NCBI GenBank assembly: GCA_030447905.1
Contig: JAUJNZ010000002.1
Span: forward strand, 230,569 to 294,568
Direction: 5' to 3'
Origin: Thermoleophilaceae bacterium
Lineage (GTDB): Bacteria; Actinomycetota; Thermoleophilia; Solirubrobacterales; Thermoleophilaceae
Length of the DNA: 64,000 nt
Part shown: positions 27,377-55,620 of the stretch, piece after piece
Layout: every line of letters starts with the position of its first letter
Position numbering within the stretch: position 1 is the stretch's first letter
Made by a program: the position numbers and the translations under genes
Notes under the pieces: model-generated
Databases searched by the model: none
Seen by the model: the letters and a program-made list of their open reading frames with translations, nothing else
What the model was told of the DNA's origin: nothing

Positions 27377-27685
27377 AGGCCGACTCTCGGTACGTCTACC
27401 AGTCACCGCTCCGAGTCTCTCGATGCGGACGGCCAGCGACCTACTTCGGGCGTGCCGCAGGGGAAGGTTCACCGGGACTGTGTGTCGCAGGGGCATCGGC
27501 TTGTGGGACGGCGGTTGTGGCCCGCCCCCCTCCCATCAGGGGGCGCCCACTGCTCCAACCACGCGGAAGCCTTGGCGATCGAAACCACCCTCAGACGCGC
27601 CTGCTGATCGTCAGGCCGCCTGCTGACTGCTCGCGCTCCTCCTCTGCGATCTGTTTGCTGGGTTGGGCTCGACACCCAACGACGT
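27377..27685. other. gene-free stretch before the HNH-like gene
   Basis: 309 bases without a supported gene. I looked here for an inverted repeat like the one bounding the second HNH-like gene at 50.2 kb and did not see one. Confidence 0.4.
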
Positions 27686-28529
27686 ATGGTCCGACTCGTG
27701 GACCCGTGCCTCTTCTGCCGACAGGTGCGCAAGCTCTCGAAGGAGCATCTTTGGCCTATGTGGGCGCGTCAGACGTTCACCGAAAGCGAGCGATCGGAGC
27801 TGATTCCTCATTCGGTCGAAACACAAGGCGGCGTTCTCGTTGAGACCTGGGACGCGCCGGTCTTCAGCGCAACCGAAAAAGTGGTCTGTGAGGAATGCAA
27901 CAACGGCTGGATGGGCGCCCTGGAGCAGCGAGCGAAGGATCACGCCGAGCCCATGCTGCTCGGGGAACCGCAGACCCTTAATCGAGAGGCGAAGGTAAGC
28001 CTCTCGATGTGGGCGTATCTGAAGATGCTCCTTGTCCAGCAAGTGGACGAGCCCGTCCTTCCCAGGGAGAGCTACGAGACGTTCTACGCAATTCAAGGCG
28101 AGGATCTACTCCCGCTCAACACGAGCGTTTTCATTGCTCATCACGTCGGCGCGCCAGGGCCAGTACCAGCACCGTCTGCTCGCGCCACGCGGCACAGATA
28201 CTCCAGAGTTCTTTATCGGCACCTTTACGGTGCGTCAGCTCGTCATTCAGATCGCAAAGAACTTCACGGCGCACGAGCCCGCGCTCTTTGAGCGGGATCC
28301 TCGGGTCGAAGGGTGCGACGACCTAATCTGGCCGGCAACAGACGACGTCGTGAGCTGGCCTCGCGATCGAGGCCTAGACGATGGGGCGCTTTCCGTGTTT
28401 ACCGGCCCACAGCCGAGCCGAAGGCGCAGATGGACGGCGCAGCGGACGGTCAATGCACACAAACGTGCCAAGAGTCGCGCGCGTCGCAAAGCCGCGCGCC
28501 AGCAGAGGAGCCAACGTCGGCGACCCTGA
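27686..28529 (+). pseudogene. HNH-like CxxC protein, copy 1 (frameshifted)
   Basis: The N-terminus has CLFCRQVRKLSKEHLWPMW and then VCEECNNGWMGALEQRAKDH, matching the HNH-like protein at 50187-50990 (CVFCGGKDLTKEHVWPAW, VCATCNHGWMNDLENQAK). The two CxxC pairs and the Glu-His of KEH suggest a treble-clef HNH nuclease fold. After about 28150 the similarity moves to another frame (RQGQYQHRLLAPRGTDTP, FTVRQLVIQIAKNF), so a frameshift in the GGCGCGCC run separates the halves; restoring one CG unit would join them. Start ATG 27686 or GTG 27698. The C-terminus is strongly basic. Restored length is about 280 residues. Confidence 0.7.
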
Positions 28530-49734: not shown

Positions 49735-50069
49735 TACGTCTCTCCTTTCGTGCGCTCGAGGAGCTCCCCGAGGCGATCGAGGCGGCCGTCCAGCATCCGC
49801 CGGTAGCCCTCGATCCATCGTTGGATGTCGTCCAGGTCACGGGGACCGAGGCTGCACCGGCGGACCCGGCCGACCTTCTCGGTCGTTACGAGCCCTGCCT
49901 CCTCCAGGACCAGGACGTGCTTCTTCAGCCCGGTCAGCGACATCTCGAACGGCTCCGCGAGCTCAGTGATCGTGGCGCTGTGGCGGCCGAGGCGCTCGAG
50001 GATTCCCCTCCGCACCGGGTCCGCGAGCGCCGCGAAGGCGTGGTCGAGATGGTGCTGATGCTGAACCAT
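49734..50069 (-). CDS. ArsR family transcriptional regulator
   Basis: 112 residues from ATG 50069 (MVQHQHHLDHAF); an ATG at 50081 would add four. The winged-helix motif reads HAFAALADPVRRGILERLGR and ITELAEPFEMSLTGLKKHVL, then VLEEAGLVTTEKVGRVRRCS. It lacks the metal-binding CxC of classic ArsR proteins, so it probably does not sense metals. A 22-base palindrome (50059-50080) overlaps the start region and may be its own operator. The gene is upstream of the SRPBCC partner. Confidence 0.88.
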   Translation of the reverse strand: MVQHQHHLDHAFAALADPVRRGILERLGRHSATITELAEPFEMSLTGLKKHVLVLEEAGLVTTEKVGRVRRCSLGPRDLDDIQRWIEGYRRMLDGRLDRLGELLERTKGET

Positions 50070-50080
50070 GTGGTTCAGCA
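50059..50080. promoter_or_regulatory. palindrome over the start of the ArsR gene (possible operator)
   Basis: Nine-base arms TGCTGAACC and GGTTCAGCA are perfect inverted repeats around ATGT. It overlaps both candidate start codons of the ArsR gene. ArsR-family dimers bind palindromes of this size near their own promoters; binding here is inferred from symmetry and position. Confidence 0.5.
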
Positions 50081-50154
50081 TACAGGAGAGCCAACGAGGC
50101 GCAGCAACCCCGTTCTCCGGGGAAGAGCCAAGCCGCTTGACATGTGGCTAAACG

Positions 50155-50181
50155 GGGCGATTATCCCATCTCTGTAGAGGA
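50155..50181 (+). repeat. left terminal inverted repeat of the IS1595-type element
   Basis: 27 bases beginning GGGCGATTATCCCATCTCTG. The reverse complement of 53131-53157 begins GGGCGACTATCCCATCGTTG. They differ at three positions. Confidence 0.8.
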
Positions 50182-50186
50182 AGGAG

Positions 50187-50990
50187 CTAAGCTACATGGC
50201 GCGTGACAGGTCGGGTCGGAGTCTCGAAGGACTCTCCGAAGGCGAGCATGCCCTCGTCGGTCAGCGCGGGACGGGGATAGAAGGTCATTCCTCCCTCAGC
50301 GGGCCAGATTCTGTAGACGGGGAACTGGCGCGCGTGGGTCAATCCGAGCCCGCGGAGGGTCGAGGTCATGAGCTGAATTGCCAGCTGACCGACGCCCAAG
50401 GTCGCCCCGTACATGTTCGATCCATCCGGGTAATCGGCGGTCCAGGGTACGTCTGGAATACGGAGGCCTAGAGCGGCGCGGCGGTGATACGTCATGAAGC
50501 GCGTTCCCGCGTACGGTGCGAGCCAGACGTGGAAGTGCGGTAGGACTTCTCGGCGCTCGTACAGCCAGCGGTAGTGCTCATCCGGGATAGCGCGGGGACT
50601 ATCGGATGAGGCGAACTCAAACATCATCACCGTCTTCCATGCCCAGAGCGCGAGCGTCTTGCGCGTGGCCGGGTAGAGAGTGCGACCACGACCCTCAAGC
50701 ATGGGCAATAGGGCCGGTTTCGCCTGGTTCTCTAGGTCGTTCATCCAGCCGTGGTTGCACGTGGCGCAGACTCGCCTCACCGTCGCGTGGAAGGGTGGGG
50801 CGGTGAAGGGCGAGCGCTCGTGCACGTCGTCCTGAACCTCCGCCCAGTTGACGTGGCGCGCCATCTTCGCCTGCGCTTGCGTCGCCTTAGCGAGCCACGC
50901 GGGCCAGACGTGCTCCTTCGTCAGGTCTTTGCCCCCACAGAAGACGCAACGGCGCTTCGATCGGATCGCGCCGTCCTCTTGCTCGGCCAT
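50187..50990 (-). CDS. HNH-like CxxC protein, copy 2 (transposon passenger)
   Basis: 267-residue intact protein. Zinc-knuckle Cys15/Cys18 in CVFCGGKDLTKEHVWPAW with His27, then Cys75/Cys78 in VCATCNHGWMNDLENQAK, give an HNH/treble-clef-like layout. The middle and end (GVGQLAIQLMTSTLRGLGL) match the frameshifted copy at 27686-28529 (VRQLVIQIAKNF), so this is a family of its own. It ends six bases inside the left terminal repeat boundary of the element, so it is a passenger gene. Nuclease activity is likely but not shown. Confidence 0.75.
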   Translation of the reverse strand: MAEQEDGAIRSKRRCVFCGGKDLTKEHVWPAWLAKATQAQAKMARHVNWAEVQDDVHERSPFTAPPFHATVRRVCATCNHGWMNDLENQAKPALLPMLEGRGRTLYPATRKTLALWAWKTVMMFEFASSDSPRAIPDEHYRWLYERREVLPHFHVWLAPYAGTRFMTYHRRAALGLRIPDVPWTADYPDGSNMYGATLGVGQLAIQLMTSTLRGLGLTHARQFPVYRIWPAEGGMTFYPRPALTDEGMLAFGESFETPTRPVTRHVA

Positions 50991-51094
50991 ACTGGCTCCT
51001 TCGACGATGGGTTTTCCCCGAGCTGCCCTGCTCTTGGCGGAGGATGGGCGGCTCGGGGCCTAACCCGGGCAAGGTAGGGTTCTGAGCGGACGCG

Positions 51095-51262
51095 ATGGCC
51101 AAGAAGCTGCCCAAAGAGGAGCCGACCCAGAAAACCCGGCCTCGCGGGAAGGACGCTGAGGGCAAGCCGGCGAAGCCCGAGACGATCCCCGTGCCGACGC
51201 GCGGAGAGTTCTTCCGCGACTTGAAGAAGATCGCGAAGGGTGGGGACAACTCGTCCCGCTGA
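51095..51262 (+). CDS. small basic hypothetical protein
   Basis: 55 residues from ATG 51095. N-terminus KKLPKEEPTQKTRPRGKDAE is Lys/Pro-rich, then IPVPTRGEFFRDLKKIAKG. Similar short proteins with a PxPxRxEFFxDLxKxAK pattern occur near transposons and restriction genes, but I know no function. Its end overlaps the next small frame (51240). Divergent from the HNH gene by about 105 bases. Confidence 0.55.
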   Translation: MAKKLPKEEPTQKTRPRGKDAEGKPAKPETIPVPTRGEFFRDLKKIAKGGDNSSR

Positions 51263-51473
51263 TGCCGTGCCGGTCTTCCTGGACAGGGTGCGGGATACAG
51301 GAGAAACCGGCGTCATAGTCGGCGGCACGGTCGGTTTTGTCGTCGGCTCCCTGCGCTACTGGCGAACGGGCATTGGCCTCGACGCGATGCTCAAAGTGGG
51401 GGGCGTAGGGGCCTATTTCGGCTTCGCGGGCGGGGCCGTTGGCGTCATTGCTGAGATTCTCGCCCAAGCCTGA
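51240..51473 (+). CDS. small membrane protein
   Basis: Up to 77 residues from GTG 51240 (a second GTG at 51267 would give a shorter form). Two hydrophobic helices read VGGTVGFVVGSLRYW and AYFGFAGGAVGVIAEILA. It overlaps the end of the 55-residue gene by 23 bases. Unknown role; the overlap may indicate coupling in the transposon passenger unit. Confidence 0.5.
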   Translation: MGTTRPADAVPVFLDRVRDTGETGVIVGGTVGFVVGSLRYWRTGIGLDAMLKVGGVGAYFGFAGGAVGVIAEILAQA

Positions 51474-51512
51474 AGGCGCCGACGGCGCCTGCCGATTACA
51501 GTACGGAGTCCG

Positions 51513-51950
51513 ATGAAGCGGAAGCTGATCCTGCTAGGCATAGCGCTAGCCGTGGCCGCTGCCATCGGCCTGGTTGCCAACGTGCTCAACCTCGACCAGC
51601 GCTTTCTCAGCGCGCTTGTGGGTGCCGCCATCGCCCTACTTGTGGCCTTCGGACTGCCCTTCGCCTTCAGCGTCCCGGTCGAGGGTCGCAACCGCATGCA
51701 GCCTCAAGAAGCCGCAGTTGTTGCAGACGATCACGAGGACTGGGAAGCCGTGCCCAACGATCATGGCTTTCGACTCTCCAACGGCTTGCAGCAGCCCCTC
51801 CTCTTGAGCGATGCCCCAGTCATGCCGACCACACGCTGGGCAGAGTCCGCCTCCACCACCTTTGCGGTTGAGGTTCGCGACGAGTTTCGTGAGGTCAGCC
51901 ATCCCGTTCTTCCATTGGAAGCTCTAATCGGCAACGGCTCGAGCGAGTAG
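51513..51950 (+). CDS. possible two-helix membrane protein (overlaps antisense zinc-ribbon gene)
   Basis: From ATG 51513, KLILLGIALAVAAAIGLVAN and ALVGAAIALLVAFGLPFAFS look like real membrane helices. The remainder lies opposite the zinc-ribbon gene at 51636-51902, which is better supported, so the downstream part is probably not coding. The first 40 residues may be a real small protein; the full frame is doubtful. Confidence 0.3.
   Translation: MKRKLILLGIALAVAAAIGLVANVLNLDQRFLSALVGAAIALLVAFGLPFAFSVPVEGRNRMQPQEAAVVADDHEDWEAVPNDHGFRLSNGLQQPLLLSDAPVMPTTRWAESASTTFAVEVRDEFREVSHPVLPLEALIGNGSSE
51636..51902 (-). CDS. small zinc-ribbon protein (copy A)
   Basis: 88 residues from ATG 51902: LCPACGRHDWGIAQEEGLLQ and later VLVIVCNNCGFLRLHAV. 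The two CxxC pairs with a preceding Trp and following LRxHA match the second small protein at 52879-53112 (CSACGHDQWD, VCTNCGHVRFHSAQH). The pair flanks the transposase. They may bind zinc and nucleic acid. Intact. Confidence 0.65.
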   Translation of the reverse strand: MADLTKLVANLNRKGGGGGLCPACGRHDWGIAQEEGLLQAVGESKAMIVGHGFPVLVIVCNNCGFLRLHAVATLDRDAEGEGQSEGHK

Positions 51951-52879
51951 CGTCTCGAAATCCGCCCGCCGATCGTCGCGGTGATTGAGCCGCCACGCGT
52001 ACTCGTTGAGGTATCCCTGTAGCCACTTGCGGGAGACGCCGTGGTAGTTCCCCGCGATCCCGTTCTTCACGTTGCCGAAGAAACCTTCCACGGTATTCGT
52101 ATGGACGTCTCCGCTCGCGTAGACTCGCTCTGAGTGAGCGATCGTCTCATGTTCGCCCGGATGGCCCATCTTGTGGTAGCCGACCCAATCGTCGGTCACG
52201 AGCCGCGCGTTCGGGTGGACGTGCTTGCGCACCGCATCGGGGGCGCGCTCGCCAGCTTGACTAACGAGCAGGCGGGCCTTGCCGTCGCGCTGGATGACGC
52301 CAACCACGGGCGTCTTGCGAGCCTTCGCCCAGGTGATCGCCTCCGGGCGCGTCATGCCGCGCGTCTGAGACGCCTTCGGCTTTCCACCCCACCACGTCTC
52401 ATCGGCCTCGACAGTCTCGCCCTGCTCGCCAAGCGGCGCCTCGGCTTCCTGCGCCATGAGGTTGTTGCGGATCAGGTTCAGCATCCGCCACGCGGTCTTG
52501 TAGGTCACGCCCAGCTCCGCTCTAGGTGCTTGGCGGACACTCCGCACTTTGTGCTCGTCATGAGGTAGCAGGCATAGAACCAGAGAACGAGCGAGGTCGA
52601 GGACTTGTGGAAGATCGTGCCCGCCGTGGGCTGAATGTGATGGCCGCAGGCCGTGCAAGTCCACGACTGCCGACGTTGCGCCGTCGCGTAGCGCTTGAAG
52701 GACCGGCGCTTATCGCACTTCGGGCAGTGGGCGTGTTCTCCGTCGTCGGAGAAGCGCGAGCGCCAAAGGTGCTCTAGGCAGGCGTCGTCGTCGGGGAACT
52801 CCCGCATGAACTCCATGAGCGAGTAGCGCGAGGACGACGACTTGGCGCGCTGAGGATCTTTCCTATCGACTGGCGGCAT
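51924..52879 (-). pseudogene. IS1595-family (ISXO2-like) transposase, frameshifted
   Basis: From ATG 52879: DACLEHLWRSRFSDDGEHAH, then a zinc ribbon CPKCDKRRSFKRY...CTACGHHIQPTAGTIF. The conserved DDE part continues in the next frame from about 52515: VTYKTAWRMLNLIRNNLM, VEADETWWGGKPK (first Asp), ARLVTDDWVGYHKMGH (second Asp) and HTNTVEGFFGNVKNGIAG (catalytic Glu region). One G is missing in a GGG run before the LGV codons. Restored length is about 318 residues. The start overlaps the copy B zinc-ribbon stop (TGATG). Confidence 0.82.
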
Positions 52880-53112
52880 CAGTAGCCCTGCGCTCGGTTC
52901 TCAATGTGCTGAGCAGAGTGGAAGCGGACGTGCCCGCAATTGGTGCAGACCAGCGCGAGCACCTCAAGCTCCTCCCCGAGGGTGGTGACGGCATGCCCGT
53001 AGTCCCATTGATCGTGGCCGCACGCTGAGCAGCGAGGGTTGATCCTCGCCGCGTTGAGCTGCATGACCAGTCGAGCTACGCGGTCGGAACGCTGGGTGGG
53101 CTCGTTTGCCAT
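52879..53112 (-). CDS. small zinc-ribbon protein (copy B)
   Basis: 77 residues from ATG 53112: VARLVMQLNAARINPRCSAC, then GHDQWDYGHAVTTLGEELEV and LALVCTNCGHVRFHSAQHI. Its CxxC pairs align with copy A at 51636-51902. Its stop overlaps the transposase ATG by one base. The start is 19 bases inside the right inverted repeat, so its promoter must lie in or beyond the repeat. Confidence 0.65.
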   Translation of the reverse strand: MANEPTQRSDRVARLVMQLNAARINPRCSACGHDQWDYGHAVTTLGEELEVLALVCTNCGHVRFHSAQHIENRAQGY

Positions 53113-53130
53113 GCAGGCATCTTACCACAA

Positions 53131-53157
53131 TCCTCTACAACGATGGGATAGTCGCCC
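53131..53157 (-). repeat. right terminal inverted repeat of the IS1595-type element
   Basis: 27 bases pairing with 50155-50181 at 24 positions. Immediately outside lies the promoter region of the second ArsR gene at 53182. Confidence 0.8.
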
Positions 53158-53181
53158 TACGCGGTCACATATAATCGCGGC

Positions 53182-54002
53182 ATGGACGCGGTGTTCAGAT
53201 CCCTCGCCGATCCGACGCGCCGGAGCCTGCTCGACGAGCTGTTCGAGCGAGACGGGCAGACCCTCAGCGCGTTCGAGGCGCGGTTGCCGATGACGCGCTT
53301 CGGCGTCATGAAGCACCTGCGGGTGCTGGAGGAGGCGGGTCTCGTGGTCACGCGCAGGCGCGGGCGCGAGAACTCCACTTCCTGAACCCCGTCCCGATCC
53401 GCCTCGTCCACGACCGCTGGGTGAGCAAGTACGCCGAGCCCTGGGCCGCGACGCTCAGCGGACTCAAGCAACGATTGGAGGAGAAGACGATGGAGAAGGT
53501 GTTCGAGATCTACATCAAGACCACGCCGGAGCGTCTGTGGGAGGCGATCACCGACAGCGAGAGGCGGCGATACAACTTCGGCGTCGGCGTCGAAACGGAC
53601 TGGACGCCGGGCTCGCGCTACGAGGGCGTCCACCCGATGGCGCCCGGGCCACTGCTCGAGGGCGAGAACCTGGAGGTCGATCCGCCCCGGCGGCTCGTCC
53701 AGAGCTTCACGGCGCTCTGGAGCGAGGACGCGAAGGCCGAGGGAACCTCGAGGGTGACCTGGGAGATCGAGGCGGTCGGCGACTCGTGCCGGCTGACCGT
53801 CATCCACGACCAGCCGCGCGAGGGCGCAAACGCCGAGCTCTACGGCGGCTGGCCGCAGATCCTTTCCGGCCTGAAGACGCTGCTCGAGACCGGGGAGTCA
53901 CTTACCACCCCGGCTCGCTCCGCTATGGGGAAGGCGCGGAAGCGGCTGTCTAAGCGCCGCGAAGTCAGAGCTCCGGACATCCTGACGAACGAGCGAGGCT
54001 GA
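53182..54002 (+). pseudogene. ArsR regulator fused to SRPBCC domain (frameshifted)
   Basis: Frame one starts at ATG 53182: VFRSLADPTRRSLLDELFER, then RFGVMKHLRVLEEAGLVVTR, a winged-helix ArsR domain. A missing base near 53374 ends it early at 53385. The continuation LHFLNPVPIRLVHDRWVSKY is in the next frame and leads into an SRPBCC domain (KVFEIYIKTTPERLWEAITD, GVGVETDWTPGSRYEGVHP, VIHDQPREGANAELYGGWPQ). The restored protein is about 273 residues. ArsR-SRPBCC fusions are known in actinobacteria. Confidence 0.8.
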
Positions 54003-54004
54003 AA

Positions 54005-54658
54005 ATGGCAACCGAACAAGACGAACTGATCTACGGCCGGATCTCCTCGGAAACCGTGCGCGAGGCCACCGGTCGCGGCTGGGAAGGGTGGCTCGATGCG
54101 CTCGCGCAGCGGGCGCCGCGGCCTGGAGCCACAAGGAGATCGTGGACTACCTCGAGCGCGAGCACCTCGAGGTCGGCTCGGGCTGGTGGCGACGTCGATC
54201 ACGGTCGCCTACGAGCAGGCCCGCGGCAAGCGGGCCGCGGGCGAGACCGCCGCGGGCTTCCAGGTCGGCGTCCAGCGAAGCGTCGCCACGACGGCGACGG
54301 AGGCGTGGGAGCTGATCACCTCGCAGCCGAGCTGTGGCTGGGCGAGGGGGCGTCCGTGGCCTTCGACGAGGGCGAGCGGTATGAGGTGCAATCGGGGAAC
54401 GGCGGTCCCGGCTCGAGCGGCGAGATCCGCGTCGTGAAACCCGGCGACCGCCTGCGAATGACCTGGCAGCCGGCGGGCTGGCCGGCACCGGCGACGCTTC
54501 AGCTCACGCTCTCGGAGACAAGGTCCGGAAAGACCGCAATCCACGCGCAGCTGGAGAAGCTCCCCGACGCCGACGCTCGCGAGGCGGTGCGTAAGCGCTG
54601 GCGCGAGGCACTCGAGCGGATCGCCACGGCGGCCGCATCAGCGGCCCCGGCCAGGTAG
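54005..54658 (+). pseudogene. DUF4287 plus SRPBCC protein (at least three frameshifts)
   Basis: The start MATEQDELIYGRISSETVRE and GRGWEGWLDAL is frame one. The next block, AAWSHKEIVDYLEREHLEVG, is in a second frame, ITVAYEQARGKRAAGETAAG and FQVGVQRSVATTATEAWELI in a third, and LWLGEGASVAFDEGERYEVQ back in the first. N-terminal part is the DUF4287-type domain, C-terminal an SRPBCC-like fold ending in KLPDADAREAVRKRWREALE. It starts two bases after the previous gene. Motifs are well kept despite the indels. Confidence 0.7.
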
Positions 54659-54660
54659 CG

Positions 54661-55620
54661 GTGGGCGACCGGGTCCTCTCTGCCAAGGACATCGTGGTCT
54701 CCACGGGGTCTGAGCCCATCGTTCCTCCGGTGCCCGGGCTGCGCGAGCTCGCCGGGGTCTGGACCAACCGCGAGGCGACCGGGCTCAGGGCGGTGCCCGA
54801 GCGTCTGATCGTCCTCGGCGCGGGACCGGTTGGGGTCGAGATGGCCCAGGCCGTGCGGCGGTTGGGCGCGCCGGTCGCGATCGTCGAGGGCACTGACCAC
54901 GTCCTTCCGCGCGAGCCTCGGCAGCTCGGGGACGCCCTCGGGAGGCCCTCGCGGGCGAGGCGATCGAGCTGCACTTCGGACAGCACGCCTCGGGGGCGCG
55001 GCGCGAGGGGACGACTACGTGATCGCCTTTCCGGACGGAGGCGAGCTTCGCGGCGACCGCCTGCTCGTGGCGACCGGCCGCCGGCCCCGGGCGCAGGGCC
55101 TCGGGCTCGAGAGACGATCGGGATCGAGCCGGGGCCACACGGGATCGAGGTCGACACACGCATGTCCGCCGGTGAAGGGGTCTGGGCGATCGGCGACGTG
55201 ACCGGCACCTGGCCGCTCACCTACGTCGGCAAGTACCAGGGGCGCGTGGCCGCCGCGAACATCCTCGGCGAGCCCCGCGAGGCGAGCTACGGGGCCGTGC
55301 CGCGCGTCGTGTTCACCGATCCGCAGGCCGCTGCGGTGGGGGAGGCGGAGGGACCGGTGACCGCCACGGTCCCCGTGTCGGATGTTCCGCGCGCCGCCAC
55401 CTACACGCGGGACTACGACAAGCGCCCGGGCTTTCTCACCGGCGCCTACGCGCTCGGACCCGAGGCCGGCGAGTGGCTCCAGCAGGCGACGCTCGCCATC
55501 CGCGCGAAGGTCCCGCTCGAGATCATGGCGGACACGATCCAGCCCTTCCCGACCTTCTCGGAGATCTTCCTACACGGGTTGACGGCGCTCGGCGCGAAAG
55601 CTCCCACCCGGGCCGGTTGA
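54661..55620 (+). pseudogene. pyridine-nucleotide-disulphide oxidoreductase-like flavoprotein, truncated and frameshifted
   Basis: Begins mid-protein: KDIVVSTGSEPIVPPVPG is normally about 130 residues into a lipoamide-dehydrogenase-like enzyme, so the N-terminal FAD-binding GxGxxG and the redox CxxxxC are absent. It then shows VLGAGPVGVEMAQAVRRLG (NAD-binding), a frame change to DDYVIAFPDGGELRGDRLLV and ATGRRPRAQGLG, then back to EGVWAIGDVTGTWPLTYVGK, VFTDPQAAAVG and a dimerisation domain ending at 55620. No start codon or upstream half is present, so this is a decayed remnant. Confidence 0.75.

Follow-up and report, generated by a model that had tools for sequence, protein, structure and literature searches.

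A passenger-carrying IS1595 element in the operator of an ArsR-SRPBCC operon, and the choice of target among its relatives

Introduction

In a stretch of 64,000 nucleotides from a Thermoleophilaceae bacterium (here called the window), some 3 kb of DNA lies between two ArsR genes. The locus raises the question of what this segment is, how it came to lie where it does, and whether its position reflects a choice of target that its relatives share.

The concept of the transporter IS (tIS) was introduced with the IS1595 family (PMC3129680, PMC11891212); PMC3129680 cites Siguier et al., 2009 for it. ISNha5 is an IS1595 tIS that carries a transcription regulator (PMC11891212).

The element and its ends

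The segment is a real IS1595 tIS, and ordinary as such. Two marks of the family are present: a DDE transposase of the IS1595/ISXO2 type and terminal inverted repeats (TIRs). Of the 27 positions in the repeats at 50155-50181 and 53131-53157, 24 match, and no inverted pair in the region is better; the number of chance pairs as good in 3.9 kb is estimated at less than 1e-4. Comparison with relatives places the true ends one base inside this pair, which gives an element of 3,001 bp (50156-53156) with the TIR GGCGAYTATCCC. The inverted-repeat search and the sequence give the left TIR as GGCGATTATCCCATCTCTGTAGAGGA (50156-50181, + strand) and the right as GGCGACTATCCCATCGTTGTAGAGGA (53131-53156, - strand), and relatives of the element have the form GGYAANTATCCC. 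Outside the ends lie the left copy, CTAAACGG (50148-50155, +), and the right copy, CTACGCGG (53157-53164, +), of a target-site duplication. These two agree at 6 of 8 bases; in relatives the repeats in this position are exact over 8 bp, and 8-bp duplications, mostly exact, bound 57 related elements. A first-pass annotation of this DNA had described a 3-kb transposon of the IS1595 type that has terminal repeats and carries passenger genes. That description is upheld. ORFs and profile searches likewise confirm the gene content that it had listed: an HNH-like ORF, small ORFs, two zinc-ribbon ORFs and the transposase.

The insertion site

The DNA on the right of the element is widespread, its homologues being found in many related genomes (81-85% identity for the best eight). 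It encodes the target operon (53182-54002, +), consisting of a frameshifted ArsR gene (53182-53385; NF033788, E 5e-14), here ArsR2, and the gene of an AHSA1/SRPBCC protein (53421-54002; PF08327, E 5e-18). The promoter of this operon is split between the two sides of the element. On the left are the -35 hexamer TTGACA (50137-50142, +), now severed from its gene, and TGTGG (50143-50147, +), the left half of an operator palindrome. On the right are the other operator half, TCACA, and the -10 hexamer of ArsR2, TATAAT (together 53165-53175, +). Thus, the window reads TTGACATGTGG-CTAAACGG before the element and CTACGCGG-TCACATATAAT, then ATG, after it.

At least nine relatives (L087-L095, L097) have the empty site, with the -35 hexamer intact and a sequence that varies little from TTGACA-TGTGACC..GGTCAC-TAnnnT, after which comes the ArsR start codon. 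Their 18-nt spacer between -35 and -10 is the palindromic operator (TGTGAC-NNNNNN-GTCAC). When the element and one 8-mer are excised in silico, the relatives' promoter and spacing are restored; the element is therefore a single insertion in the right-hand ArsR-SRPBCC operator, with duplication copies that differ at two positions. The uninterrupted site, which the first-pass annotation had proposed to look for, thus exists in relatives, and the element is a later insertion. Read from sequence, the comparison establishes an IS1595 tIS inserted between -35 and -10, at the center of a palindromic operator.

The mismatched flanks, only 6/8 identical, could also mean that the two ends come from separate insertion events and were brought together when copies recombined. 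This is very improbable: the flanks jointly rebuild one promoter, with an 18-nt spacer and operator as in the relatives, and the genome (2.58 Mb in 25 contigs) contains no second copy of the element. Hybrid flanks were rejected on the ground that the relatives' empty site rebuilds one promoter, and we keep to a single insertion.

The two ArsR genes noted at the outset on either side of the element are both present, but they are not equivalent. The right-hand promoter holds the element; the left-hand gene is a neighbor only. A perfect palindrome with 8-bp arms, GCTGAACC-ATGT-GGTTCAGC (50060-50079), overlaps the start codon of the left-hand gene, and relatives of that gene have a similar palindrome, TGAACC..GGTTCA, at the gene start. 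The palindrome at 50060-50079 is therefore probably the left-hand gene's own operator.

The transposase

The transposase is encoded in two frames. Its C-terminal part, with the DDE domain (51924-52664, -), matches PF12762 (E 5e-30) and NF033547 (E 3e-40; 138 bits vs. a cut-off of 75), and its N-terminal part, a zinc ribbon in another frame (52505-52879, -), matches PF12760 above its cut-off (E 6e-7). As relatives have an intact single ORF, a single base must be out of step near 52530, a 1-nt frameshift that splits the gene. With its frame broken, the window copy may be immobile.

Frameshifts are clustered at 52500-55200 of the window, where they affect the transposase, ArsR2 and SRPBCC-like frames near 54.0-54.7 kb, unlike the ORFs upstream of 52.5 kb, which look intact. 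They may be local assembly errors or decay after promoter loss. The two are indistinguishable here, also for the transposase, because the downstream ArsR and SRPBCC genes are frameshifted too.

Passenger genes and related elements

An alignment of twelve transposases, scanned against 84,980 species, yielded 79 loci. From this first scan and from the organism's own genome, 58 elements in several phyla could be bounded by TIRs and a duplication, which is an exact 8-bp repeat in 54, a 7/8 match in three and 6/8 in the window. All are 1.9-4.1 kb long and none is a bare IS; hence passengers are the rule in the clade of the window element. Bare IS1595 elements (1.0-1.1 kb) were confined to a subsequent sample, which was more distant. 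The initial remark that passengers are rarely described for IS1595 is not supported by this count, nor by the published tIS (PMC3129680, PMC11891212). A more distant IS1595 element lies elsewhere in the organism's own genome (L011, contig C13; 3,365 bp, with the exact 8-bp duplication CTCCTGAT).

One passenger of the window element is an HNH-like protein of 267 aa (50187-50990, -; CxFC..EHxWPxW..CxxCNxGWM), with homologues in the IS1595 elements L107, L108, L123 and L140. In 13 homologues the CxxC..EH..CxxCN motif is invariant or nearly so. Profile searches gave this protein no Pfam or NCBIfam match, its predicted model found no fold match in the PDB, and a search for the gene in viral contigs returned nothing. 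A second member of the family (33% identity) is encoded at 27608-28288 (+) of the window, with no IS1595 transposase seen adjoining it.

Zinc-ribbon ORF 1 (77 aa; 52879-53112, -), identified from the ORF list and by profile and protein searches, lies between the right TIR and the transposase. Zinc-ribbon ORF 2 (88 aa; 51636-51902, -) is a weak paralogue of it (37% identity, E 9e-4), and for both genes a protein search of 201 genomes found weak homologues only. Two further frames, known as ORFs only, encode putative membrane proteins: a small one of 77 aa (51240-51473, +), to which profile searches assigned no family, and one of 145 aa (51513-51950, +), which overlaps zinc-ribbon ORF 2. Because the 145-aa frame and zinc-ribbon ORF 2 overlap, part or more of one of them is probably non-coding.

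The window element thus encloses additional ORFs, and among the related elements the HNH gene and other passengers have been exchanged from element to element; the commonest passenger elsewhere, by ORF clustering, is an unnamed protein of 250-320 aa (19 elements). The HNH-like and zinc-ribbon genes would be exchangeable passengers in the mechanism that we propose. Recurrence of the repeats with the same gene set, on which the first-pass annotation had staked its reading, was found in part: similar ends, a small convergent ORF and HNH or other passengers are widespread, but the exact gene set, above all the zinc-ribbon genes, has not turned up elsewhere. Searched as a whole, the element gave one 63-base match, in the transposase, among plasmids and no match among phages.

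A small convergent gene

One ORF stands apart from the exchangeable set. It encodes a small basic protein of 55 aa (51095-51262, +; QKTxxxGxxIPVPxRxxFxxxLxKxA) convergent to the transposase, and ORF clustering places members of its cluster in 43 of the 58 delimited elements. The alignment conserves QxTPKGxxIPVPxRxxFxxxLrKxA. In 201 genomes of the order the family has 33 matches; by our own count, 27 of them have a PF12762 match on the other strand no more than about 1.2 kb away, and of the remaining six, two are at contig ends. Pfam and NCBIfam have no model that matches the members tested. The predicted structure, of moderate confidence (pLDDT 73), has two short strands and a helix.

High GC content yields many chance ORFs, and the overlap of the 145-aa ORF with a zinc-ribbon ORF on the opposite strand is what one would expect of such frames. 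That all the small ORFs, the convergent one included, are spurious is nonetheless scarcely credible, since the motif of the convergent ORF is kept across phyla (21-50% identity to the window copy) and a similar one makes up the C-terminal tail of a trypsin-like protein carried by elements of Acidobacteriota (clearest in L162 and L168). The frames at 51240-51473 and 51513-51950, on the other hand, may be spurious. Trypsin-like or similar passengers of 350-377 aa are found in four IS1595 elements of Acidobacteriota (L162, L168, L151, L154). The small convergent basic protein belongs to the mobile unit, as its recurrence shows, and the transposase is probably its partner or its target.

The choice of target

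Is the operator in the window an isolated target? The target operon is also found beside L133 and L137, with an AHSA1/SRPBCC protein after ArsR in both, and the ArsR gene beside L148. The window element, L133 (Chloroflexi), L137 and L148 (both Acidimicrobiales) share one 8-bp target in this operator, the ArsR genes that follow are orthologous, and all four have ends of the GGY type. On the transposase tree these four need 4 changes, at least three of them forced by well-supported branches. (The row of L178 is frameshifted, and its placement in the tree is meaningless.) When 399 genomes of the same class were searched with a pattern for the operator/TIR junction, no second ArsR-operator insertion was found; the matches with two mismatches look like chance, and only the window's own junctions are convincing.

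Other elements recur at other sites. Class-1 elements, whose ends begin with CAC, lie exactly in TGTG-N8-CACA in 14 of 15 cases, and the remaining one is in GTG-N8-CAC; 475 kb of flanking DNA contains the full sequence two times, a background of 4e-6 per position. The LexA box GAAC-N4-GTTC follows the duplication at exactly 4 nt in L122, L123, L124 and L127 and is 7 nt from it in L120 and L150, and L126 has a box with one mismatch at 4 nt. Three of these (L120, L124, L127) precede imuB-type polymerase genes (PF00817). LexA-like boxes lie within 60 nt of 8 of the 58 elements, vs. 0.23% of background positions, and TTGAC is found near the duplication in 15 of 42 vs. 6% of the background. Many class-2 insertions have neither operator nor LexA box.

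In a second sample, 23 insertions outside the first set have symmetrical outer flanks as well (42/92 vs. 24.3 when shuffled, 0/5000). This sample includes another class-1 element, in TGTG-N8-CACG (L305), and one whose duplication has a LexA box at 4 nt (L254). On natural insertions, then, insertion favors symmetrical sequences. In Dormibacterota, L142 and L144 share one promoter, TTGACGCACTAC-N8-TGTGTAATAT, in which they lie in opposite orientations; it, too, looks like an operator.

Survival could shape such a pattern. Insertion might be nearly random apart from a weak symmetrical preference, with insertions in genes being lost and those in dispensable regulatory DNA persisting. All the insertions come from natural genomes and have been filtered by selection, which also favors promoters over genes; a symmetrical preference is in any case expected of a dimeric transposase, and the wider IS1595 sample is symmetrical too. 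Selection against insertions in genes does contribute, but it predicts neither identical positions nor fixed distances. As the whole explanation it is unlikely, failing for four elements from three or more transposase lineages, in hosts of two phyla, at the identical operator position, for the fixed 4-nt distance to the LexA box, and for the 14 of 15 in TGTG-N8-CACA.

A preference of the elements themselves is the reading that we favor, and operators may be recognized as such, by the transposase or together with the small protein. In the proposed mechanism, its own DDE transposase would have mobilized the element through the GGCGAYTATCCC ends, creating an 8-bp target duplication. The insertion point, as the empty site in relatives shows, is the middle of the palindromic operator, with -35 of the ArsR-SRPBCC operon on one side and -10 on the other. 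Transposases of the clade would recognize the target by sequence symmetrical about the 8-bp cut. The natural matches that they prefer would often be operators of regulated promoters, namely ArsR operators, sites adjacent to LexA boxes and TGTG-N8-CACA; their recurrence is shown, and direct recognition we infer. A stronger version, in which a clade of IS1595 transposons has evolved specificity for transcription-factor operators, with a dedicated small partner that perhaps aids target choice or couples transposition to a host regulator, is a tentative idea that we think somewhat less probable than its negation. The account as a whole, a passenger-carrying IS1595 tIS, an operator insertion, a preference for symmetrical targets and a small partner protein, we regard as the best explanation and as quite probable.

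Comparison with known elements

Like the window element, IS1595 tIS such as ISNha5 have a DDE transposase with an N-terminal zinc ribbon, terminal repeats, 8-bp duplications and passenger genes. Dispensability of the passengers for movement is a tIS trait that is putative for the window passengers. Unlike the published tIS, the window clade mostly has a conserved small convergent ORF beside the transposase, and its insertions cluster in operators and SOS promoters. ISApl4 (IS1595 family, IS1016 group; PMC12561309) also has an IS1595-family transposase and 8-bp direct repeats, but it is 712 bp long, without passengers, and has A/T-rich targets and no operator preference. The Mutator-like elements TnGBS, ISLre2 and ISKra4 (PMC3942029) likewise insert at a fixed distance from promoters; their transposase is unrelated, however, and they insert 15-17 bp upstream of the sigma-A -35 and not in an operator between -35 and -10. 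The literature that we searched, with incomplete coverage, contains no description of operator targeting by IS1595 elements or of the conserved small convergent ORF; both features look undescribed.

Conclusion

If the account holds, transposons that settle in operators would spare genes and at the same time rewire regulated promoters or exploit them. If the specificity resides in the transposase, the subclades would form a natural series from which to learn how target reading by a DDE transposase works. With the small protein there is also a concrete candidate for a new cofactor of transposition, and the choice of landing site by these elements becomes a testable question.
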